Source: an uncultured bacterium (GTDB lineage: Bacteria; Cyanobacteriota; Vampirovibrionia; Gastranaerophilales; Gastranaerophilaceae). From it: DNA of 64,000 nucleotides. Below the pieces are notes generated by a model, which had not been told where the DNA came from, did no database searches, and was given only the letters and a program-made list of their open reading frames with translations. The stretch lies in NCBI GenBank assembly GCA_949282215.1, contig CASDPF010000001.1:124001-188000 (forward strand), written 5' to 3'. Positions 55,245 to 60,977 of this stretch are shown piece by piece. Every line of letters begins with the position of its first letter. Within the stretch, counting starts at the first letter, position 1. The position numbers were made by a program, and so were the translations under genes.

Positions 55245-55604
55245 TTATACGAACGAGGAGAATCCGCCGCCGGATGAGCATGAAGATGCACATCCTCCTG
55301 AAAAACCTGCAGATGCTCCGCCGCTAAATCCGCAATCACCGCCGCCAATTGTAGATACAGCACTTGAAAAGCTTGCTAAAAATCCTGTACACGCAACTGT
55401 TGTGCCTTCTGATGAAGAATAATTAGAATAATCAATTGATGGTGCAAAAGGATTCGAAGATGTAAAAGTATCATATTGCGGTATTGAAATTAAACTCTTT
55501 TCTGTATTAAAAGCCAATGAACCTGCTGTTTCTACTGATTCAACAGGACGTTGATTAATTCCTGTATTAAGATTGTTAGAAGATTTAGCATTAATCGAAT
55601 TCAT
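55245..55604 (-). CDS. 119-residue protein with Gly/Ser/Cys-rich C-terminal tail
   Basis: The first 65 residues are polar and Asn/Ser-rich (MNSINAKSSNNLNTGINQRP). The last 50 residues are Gly, Ser and Cys rich: a segment with Cys near TTVACTG, then GGGDCGFSGGASAGF and SGGCASSCSSGGGFSSFV. No signal peptide or membrane segment is present. The tail resembles low-complexity metal-binding or peptide-precursor tails, but no modification enzyme is nearby. Its own terminator follows. Function unknown. Confidence 0.55.
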   Translation of the reverse strand: MNSINAKSSNNLNTGINQRPVESVETAGSLAFNTEKSLISIPQYDTFTSSNPFAPSIDYSNYSSSEGTTVACTGFLASFSSAVSTIGGGDCGFSGGASAGFSGGCASSCSSGGGFSSFV

Positions 55605-59010: not shown

Positions 59011-59106
59011 AGCATAAAGTTTAATATAAAAATTAATCTTATGCAATCATATCGGGGGATATAATTTTTCTGTGAATAAATATAATAATTGCAAAAGGAG
59101 ATAAAA

Positions 59107-59343
59107 ATGTACGATTTATACTATTCGGAAACCTGTCCATATTGCAGGAAAGTAATTAACTATTTTGAAGAAAATAACATTAAATTTAATCCTAAAGAAA
59201 TAAACAATCCCTCTTATTATGATGAATTACTAAAAATAGGCGGAAAAGCTCAAGTTCCGTTTGTTGTTGACATAAAAAGCGGAGTTAGTATGTACGAATC
59301 AGATGATATAATTGATTACTTAAAAAAGAATAATAAGGTTTAA
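59107..59343 (+). CDS. glutaredoxin-like protein
   Basis: From ATG 59107 (AAAAGGAG before it) the product has 78 residues: MYDLYYSETCPYCRKVINYF with the C-P-Y-C redox motif, a cis-Pro in AQVPFVVD, and ESDDIIDYL for substrate binding. It reduces disulfides or carries an Fe-S cluster. It lies 5 bases before the degenerate hybrid-cluster-protein gene, so the two are co-transcribed and may act together. Confidence 0.85.
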   Translation: MYDLYYSETCPYCRKVINYFEENNIKFNPKEINNPSYYDELLKIGGKAQVPFVVDIKSGVSMYESDDIIDYLKKNNKV

Positions 59344-59348
59344 TAACT

Positions 59349-60944
59349 ATGTTTTATAACTACGATAAAAATAACATAAACGAATATAATGAGTGTGATG
59401 CGAGAGGTGCTTGCTCTATTGCACCAAAAATTTCTTCTTTACAGGAAGTTATAATAATTTTCCTAAAACAGCTTTCATACTATGCACTAATGTTGATTAA
59501 ATTTGATGAAGACATTAGCAAAATAAGCGGGAACATTGCAGAAACACTTTCCTCATTGGTTTGTACAACTGACTACACTGATGAAGAACTTTTAGGGCTT
59601 GTAAGCAAACAATATGCATTACTAATCAAAACAAAACGTCAATATTTAAATATATGTAAAAAAAATAACCTTGAATGTAAGGAATTAAAAGCAGATATTT
59701 CAATTAAACCGGAAATGACGTTATCCTCTATTATATCACAAGGTGAAAAAATTTTTTTAAAAAAAACAAATAAAATGACAATTCATGAGAAAAATATATA
59801 TGATATTCTTTTATCCGTTCTAAAGTCGATTGCTGCAAATATTATGCAATTAAAGGATAATAATATATCATTTAATGATGCTGAAATAACACTATTAAAA
59901 GGTCTAAATTTATTAAATTCAAATAAAATTACTGAAAAGAAAATTAAACAAAAATTAAAAGAACTCTCAAAAATCAATGACAATGCAGTACTTAAACTAT
60001 ACGATGTACTGATTGAACAATATGGACAATTTGATGAAACCTTAGTTTCGCACTCAACACGAGAGGGAAAGTCAATCTTGGTTTCAGGCGGTTCATTAAA
60101 TGAACTAAAAATGCTTCTTGATGCAGCTAAACAAGAAAAAATAGATATTTATACTCACGGAGAATTACTTATTGCACATGCGTTTGAATTCTTTAAAAGA
60201 TATGAAAATTTAAAAGGTCATTACGGAAAATGCAATGAAAAATGCATACTAGACTTTGCAACATTTCCAGGAGCAATCTTACTCACAAGCAATTCATCTC
60301 AAAATCTTGAGTATGTCTACAGAGGAAGAATTTTTACAACAGAAAAATTTAAGCCTAAAGGTATAGAACAGATTGTAAATAATAATTTTAAACCATTAAT
60401 TGTATCTGCCAAATCTGCAAAAGGATTTGCTAAAGGTCAAGCAAGAGAGGATGAGCTTATAGGCTTTAATCAAAAACAACTGGAAATAAAGCTTACAGAA
60501 ATCGCAGAAAAGTTTAAAACAAAAGAAATAGAAAAGTTGTTAATACTCGGAATTTCAAATTACACAAGAGAACAGGAACAATATTTTAACACATTACTGC
60601 GGCTATTACCTCAACGCACTTTTGTATTGAGTTTTTCTTATGGGAAAATGTCAGATAATATTTTAAAAATAAATATAGTTAAAAGTTTACCAATGGCATA
60701 TAGGATACTTGATAAATTATTTGAAAAAATCTCTATAAAATCTGATAGAATTTTATATTTTTTAACTAAATGTGACTCAACTTCTATTACTAAAATAATT
60801 TCATTAAAAGAAAACGGAGCAAAGAATGTTTATTTATCTCACTGTCCTCCAAATATAATTAACCCATCAGTATTATCAACACTAAAAAATGTGTATGGAA
60901 TAAAAACAACTTCAACACCGGAAAATGATGCCAAGCTCATATAA
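59349..60944 (+). CDS. hybrid-cluster-protein (Hcp)-like protein lacking the hybrid-cluster ligands
   Basis: A 531-residue protein whose whole length lines up with hydroxylamine reductase/Hcp: ECDARGACSIAPKISSLQE (N-terminal cluster region), ILVSGGSLNELKMLLD, IYTHGELLIAH, YENLKGHYGK, FATFPGAILLTSNS, YRGRIFTTEKFKPKG, FNTLLRLLPQRTFVLSFSYGKM and the end NVYLSHCPPNIINPSVLSTL...TTSTPENDA. Canonical ligands of the 4Fe-2S-2O cluster are nearly all changed: SGHD is SGGS, TTNC is TSNS, the GGCDGA and LxxxCGK cysteines are Ser and Tyr, and the WYEQKA motif is lost. Only the Glu of the THxE motif remains. Two of four N-terminal cluster cysteines remain. It is unlikely to reduce hydroxylamine or NO; a structural, sensor or scaffold role is inferred. 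Confidence 0.78.
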   Translation: MFYNYDKNNINEYNECDARGACSIAPKISSLQEVIIIFLKQLSYYALMLIKFDEDISKISGNIAETLSSLVCTTDYTDEELLGLVSKQYALLIKTKRQYLNICKKNNLECKELKADISIKPEMTLSSIISQGEKIFLKKTNKMTIHEKNIYDILLSVLKSIAANIMQLKDNNISFNDAEITLLKGLNLLNSNKITEKKIKQKLKELSKINDNAVLKLYDVLIEQYGQFDETLVSHSTREGKSILVSGGSLNELKMLLDAAKQEKIDIYTHGELLIAHAFEFFKRYENLKGHYGKCNEKCILDFATFPGAILLTSNSSQNLEYVYRGRIFTTEKFKPKGIEQIVNNNFKPLIVSAKSAKGFAKGQAREDELIGFNQKQLEIKLTEIAEKFKTKEIEKLLILGISNYTREQEQYFNTLLRLLPQRTFVLSFSYGKMSDNILKINIVKSLPMAYRILDKLFEKISIKSDRILYFLTKCDSTSITKIISLKENGAKNVYLSHCPPNIINPSVLSTLKNVYGIKTTSTPENDAKLI

Positions 60945-60947
60945 ATA

Positions 60948-60977
60948 AAAAATCCCGTCAAAAGACGGGATTTTTTT
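60948..60977. terminator. rho-independent terminator, shared by convergent genes
   Basis: Arms AATCCCGTC (60951-60959) and GACGGGATT (60964-60972) with loop AAAA, flanked by A-run and T-run. It ends both the Hcp-like gene (plus) and rpsG (minus). Confidence 0.92.

Follow-up and report, generated by a model that had tools for sequence, protein, structure and literature searches.

We detected in a member of the gut-bacterial family Gastranaerophilaceae a hybrid cluster protein (Hcp) paralogue that is part of a family-wide clade of cluster-less Hcp paralogues in the Gastranaerophilales, keeping its place in the superfamily but falling short of the ligand set that defines Hcp. We infer, with a probability of roughly 0.4, that the fold of this protein (here termed pseudo-Hcp) has been repurposed around a dithiol/disulfide formed by two new cysteines, C475 and C499, in thiol-redox chemistry, with a glutaredoxin as one of its reductants. 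The gene lies in the window, i.e., the whole stretch of 64 kb of DNA analyzed here, for which the open reading frames were tabulated; it belongs to contig CASDPF010000001.1 of a 2.19 Mb draft genome, and Hcp ligands are numbered throughout as in D. vulgaris. Among named records that contain an orthologue, the nearest, at 80% identity, is a Candidatus Gastranaerophilales MAG. As reported in the first-pass annotation, 5 bases separate the stop codon of a glutaredoxin-like gene with a CPYC motif from the ATG of pseudo-Hcp (stop at 59343, ATG at 59349). A terminator-like hairpin closes this two-gene transcription unit (Table 1). Elsewhere in the window, a small ORF on the reverse strand (55245-55604) has a C-terminal part rich in Gly, Ser, and Cys.

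Table 1. Features of the pseudo-Hcp locus (positions in the window)
Feature	Position	Strand	Basis
AAGGAG, probable ribosome-binding site of the glutaredoxin gene	59095..59100	+	read directly
Glutaredoxin, 78 aa, CPYC active site (C10, C13) and YESD motif	59107..59343	+	ORF and profiles
Cluster-less Hcp paralogue (pseudo-Hcp), ATG start, 531 aa	59349..60944	+	ORF, profiles, alignment, fold match
Codon of C16 (Hcp Cys15), kept in 98/111 clade members (88%)	59394..59396	+	alignment
Codon of C22 (Hcp Cys21), kept in 100/111 clade members (90%)	59412..59414	+	alignment
Codon of C103, cysteine new to the clade	59655..59657	+	alignment
Codon of E272 (ligand Glu268), sole hybrid-cluster ligand left in the window protein	60162..60164	+	alignment
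Codons of C475 (at Hcp Tyr493) and D476 (at ligand Glu494)	60771..60776	+	alignment
Codon of C499 (first T of the canonical GPTLPAF motif)	60843..60845	+	alignment
Terminator-like hairpin between pseudo-Hcp and convergent rpsG, z -8.0	60947..60976	both	

The full-length homology to Hcp is borne out by the profiles, with NF003658 aligning residues 12-529 of 531 (E 4.7e-62) and TIGR01703 matching at E 5.6e-59, and by the alignment with PDB 7de4, which spans residues 16-529. Pfam Prismane (PF03063, 94.8 bits vs. a gathering cut-off of 27) places the protein in the Prismane/CODH superfamily, while both equivalog cut-offs are missed (TIGR01703, 200.0 vs. 360.8 bits; NF003658, 210.3 vs. 367 bits). 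An AlphaFold model built from three sequences (pLDDT 62.7; poor at the N-terminus and at residues 224-254 and 311-373) was compared with known structures, as the first-pass annotation had proposed. The best matches of this modest-quality model were Hcp structures, aligned over most of the chain (Z 22.6-24.1); VIA-align scored 1e1d highest (Z 24.1, 395 residues aligned), and the top CODH reached 17.2. The model thus suggests that the three-domain Hcp fold is kept. Pseudo-Hcp resembles the class I Hcps (D. vulgaris 1e1d/1e2u and E. coli 7de4) in fold, in homology over the full length, and in having a full-length helical first domain, but it lacks both their hybrid-cluster and N-terminal ligand sets and carries the new cysteines C103, C475, and C499.

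In Hcp of D. vulgaris, the hybrid cluster is bound by H244, E268, C312, C406, C434, C459, E494, and K496, and the N-terminal cluster by C3, C6, C15, and C21. The aligned columns of the window protein hold G at H244, E at E268, S at C312 and C406, Y at C434, D at E494, and T at K496, with the stretch around C459 deleted, and N, K, C, and C at the four N-terminal positions. The tally of one of eight hybrid-cluster ligands and two of four N-terminal cysteines, which falls short of the ligand set of an Hcp, agrees with the earlier reading that only the Glu in THxE and two cysteines (C16 and C22) remain. Misalignment as the source of the missing ligands was ruled out, as pairwise alignments place the flanking motifs just as the multiple alignment does. 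All 19 canonical Hcps from the same class keep the eight hybrid-cluster ligands; two of these are encoded by the window genome itself and have all 12 ligands present. Among the 111 family members, the window protein included, 79 keep no hybrid ligand, 21 keep one, 10 keep two, and one keeps three. Because the E268 column varies across the 99 full-length clade members (D 37, E 19, N 18, G 9, S 7), the Glu in THxE of the window protein is incidental and not a conserved remnant. C16 and C22 are mostly kept or lost together (both in 99 of 116 rows, neither in 11, one in 6).

The tree set comprised 135 sequences, i.e., 19 canonical Hcps and 116 others (99 full-length and 12 shortened sequences of the window's family, and five half-degraded ones of two other families of the order). 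The resulting tree, from a quick search with no bootstrap, separates the 19 canonical Hcps from the 116 others with an SH-aLRT of 100. The first-pass annotation had described a single degenerate homologue; the degeneracy stands for the window protein, but this protein is one of 111 members of a family-wide clade. A search of 194 relatives' genomes gave a match in 134, with canonical Hcps counted in. When the TIGR01703 search and the relatives' search were combined for 72 genomes of the family, with canonical presence judged by the TIGR01703 family cut-off, 28 had both kinds, 41 only the cluster-less kind, one only a canonical Hcp, and two neither. A clade-profile search of 382 genomes of the class, the weak matches of which include canonical Hcps, is consistent with a near-universal presence of pseudo-Hcp in the family; a scan of viral contigs with the same profile found no relative. 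The clade is under purifying selection: NG86 omega ranges from 0.025 to 0.142 for pairs with computable dS (dS being saturated in several), compared to 0.054-0.091 for pairs of canonical Hcps, and the earlier suggestion that the fold is under selection is upheld (dN/dS about 0.03-0.14). Several residues other than ligands are also strongly conserved in the clade (G247, D302, F306, G308, G338, and G359).

Tandem arrays of cluster-less Hcp genes occur at three loci (L055; L057, two copies; L060, three copies), and the copies at L060 differ in the loss of C16/C22. A shortened subclade (L101, L102, L104, and L124-L132) has proteins of about 480-530 aa that have lost part of domain 3. The half-degraded Hcps of the two other families (L103 in G130; L109 and L111 in G127 and G122; L113 and L115 in G126 and G129) keep two to three of the eight ligands in differing combinations.

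Cysteine conservation in the clade is highest at C475 (95%), C499 (95%), C103 (91%), C22 (90%), and C16 (88%), against an overall cysteine frequency of 1.7%. In the 19 canonical Hcps, cysteine never occurs at the C475 and C499 columns and occurs once at that of C103. C475 and C499 behave as a pair, as both are present in 105 of the 116 rows, neither in 10, and one alone in a single row; on the tree, they were lost five times independently, nearly always together (p 0.0625 by sign test, the lowest value that five pairs can give). Even in the shortened subclade, they persist in 11 of 12 members. C295/C299, which are only 18% and 40% conserved, were ruled out as a clade-wide new site. The column of C475 directly precedes that of the lost ligand Glu494. 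The first-pass annotation had read the protein as a fold maintained without its active site and had named other cysteines at the cluster site as an observation that would speak against this; the kept fold and the loss of ligands stand, but C475 beside E494 comes close to that very observation, the site being not merely empty, with C475 and C499, as well as C103, among the best conserved columns.

In the model, C475 and C499 follow directly after strands 468-472 and 493-497, respectively, which are successive strands of the third domain (block pLDDT about 60-86). Altering residue 559 of CODH-II shifts I580 out of its place, and V582 and N448 become engaged in hydrogen bonds (PMC12338426). If K563 of CODH corresponds to K496 of Hcp, an equivalence taken from a shared motif and not from superposition, residue 559 would correspond to Hcp W492 and C475 would fall at CODH-II position 560, while C499 would fall at about position 581 by alignment with two CODHs of the order. 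Since residue 559 of CODH-II contacts 580 and 582, C475 and C499 may be expected, by analogy, to be neighbors at the old substrate channel.

Considering these observations, we hypothesize that, early in the Gastranaerophilales, an Hcp paralogue gave up both of its metal clusters and was then repurposed with its Hcp/CODH fold kept, so that the former cluster pocket would now hold the pair C475 and C499. This pair would cycle between dithiol and disulfide, acting on a putative substrate in disulfide reduction or in redox sensing. The neighboring CPYC glutaredoxin would be one of its reductants, a likely although not obligatory partner; the inherited pair C16/C22 may be a second thiol site. Redox cycling of pseudo-Hcp is suggested because a glutaredoxin gene is linked to it.

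A rather unlikely alternative is that pseudo-Hcp is a new metal-binding protein, in which a single metal ion or small cluster, delivered or protected by the glutaredoxin, is bound by C475, C499, the acidic residue D476, and possibly also by residue 272 or His270/His277. The E494 column is acidic in 77 of the 99 full-length members (D 71, E 6), H277 and H270 are largely conserved, residue 272 is mostly D, E, or N, and a precedent exists in CODH scaffolds whose ligands and clusters have both changed (PMC9311411; PMC6344411). On the other hand, D476 is replaced by N, H, T, or A in proteins that keep both cysteines and stays D in three sequences without them, and a full set of three to four conserved pocket ligands is not visible. 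The dithiol/disulfide fits better than a metal site because only two candidate residues of the pocket co-vary strictly, and a metal would need more conserved ligands.

The upstream gene passes the Pfam cut-offs of GST_N_3 (58.6 vs. 22) and Glutaredoxin (PF00462, 36.1 vs. 22.9), and these profiles together with C10-P-Y-C13 assign it to the glutaredoxins and GST N-terminal proteins of thioredoxin fold. It differs from a typical glutaredoxin in reaching no NCBIfam cut-off and in that the second Cys is Ser in 10 of the 55 linked copies (CPYC 43, CPYS 10, CPFC 2). A glutaredoxin lies directly upstream of pseudo-Hcp in 57 of the 116 rows, a trait that changes six times along the tree. This adjacency carries less weight because the largest subclade conserves the whole block epimerase, glutaredoxin, pseudo-Hcp, rpsG, and rpsL. 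Glutaredoxin and pseudo-Hcp also remain paired at loci whose outer neighbors differ, and a distant subclade, whose genomes among the matches listed lack the first type, has a different, unrelated GrxC-like glutaredoxin in the same place. About half of the clade is without an adjacent glutaredoxin, some of those genomes carrying one elsewhere; the first type is unlinked in about 16 genomes and is also present in genomes without pseudo-Hcp. C475/C499 are lost at some loci with a glutaredoxin (L053, L098, and L099). A strict dependence on the adjacent glutaredoxin was ruled out by the unlinked and absent cases; the coupling first noticed in the window is real but facultative. Besides, a glutathione-like thiol is possible in the host because the window genome encodes a GCS2-family ligase (L136, 1351-2676), a homologue of the plant-type glutamate-cysteine ligase (TIGR01436, 288 bits, below the NCBIfam cut-off); a search of this genome for PF04262 and GshF found neither.

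Equally unlikely is a non-catalytic scaffold or regulator, for which the fold would be kept for protein-protein contact, with the cysteines either playing a structural part or switching the contact in response to redox state. The maintenance of the fold with a largely rewritten pocket, the conserved residues outside the ligand positions, and the tandem copies in a few genomes point in this direction, but a purely structural role alone does not predict that two cysteines of the old pocket are conserved and lost jointly. Canonical Hcp would not be the specific partner in general, and pseudo-Hcp as a general subunit of canonical Hcp was ruled out, as 41 of the 72 family genomes have pseudo-Hcp with no canonical Hcp over the cut-off. 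A decaying gene without function, which the long branches and variable former ligand positions might indicate, is highly improbable, being contradicted by an omega far below 1, by an ORF in nearly all sampled family genomes, and by shared conserved motifs. A working Hcp that holds its hybrid cluster on substitute ligands is just as improbable: many members have E or D where two carboxylate ligands used to be, but all four cluster cysteines, the His, and the Lys have given way to residues that differ among the members, the C459 stretch being deleted.

Precedents for pseudo-Hcp are known among the deviant CODHs, e.g., CooS-V (PMC9311411) and groups with non-conserved motifs (PMC6344411), which share with it the superfamily and a scaffold kept with changed active-site ligands, and some of which carry added cysteines. 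CooS-V lacks one motif cysteine and still holds a metal cluster (PMC9311411), whereas practically all ligands are gone in pseudo-Hcp. Our literature search (Hcp with glutaredoxin, Hcp of Gastranaerophilales/Melainabacteria, and Hcp pseudoenzymes), which covered a minority of subscription journals, found no such clade described. A survey of HCP genes checked doubtful sequences for key clusters (PMC13056359) and, judging from its methods, may have missed such proteins. If true, our reading would provide a clear case of a metalloenzyme fold that stayed under selection once its cofactor was gone; a graded series runs from canonical through half-degraded to fully cluster-less proteins within one bacterial order. 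It also opens to experiment what functions an Hcp/CODH fold may have in the absence of metal. The wider claim that this fold, so far known as a carrier of metal clusters, has evolved a cluster-free thiol-disulfide active site, served by the linked glutaredoxin and more widespread in the family than the parent metal enzyme, is more doubtful than the repurposing itself. Annotation by homology only misleads here, as the half-degraded L103 passes the NCBIfam cut-off for hydroxylamine reductase (374 vs. 360.8 bits) though five of its eight ligands are gone. CODH-like genes also occur in a sister family within this order (L137 and L138, in G117 and G123).
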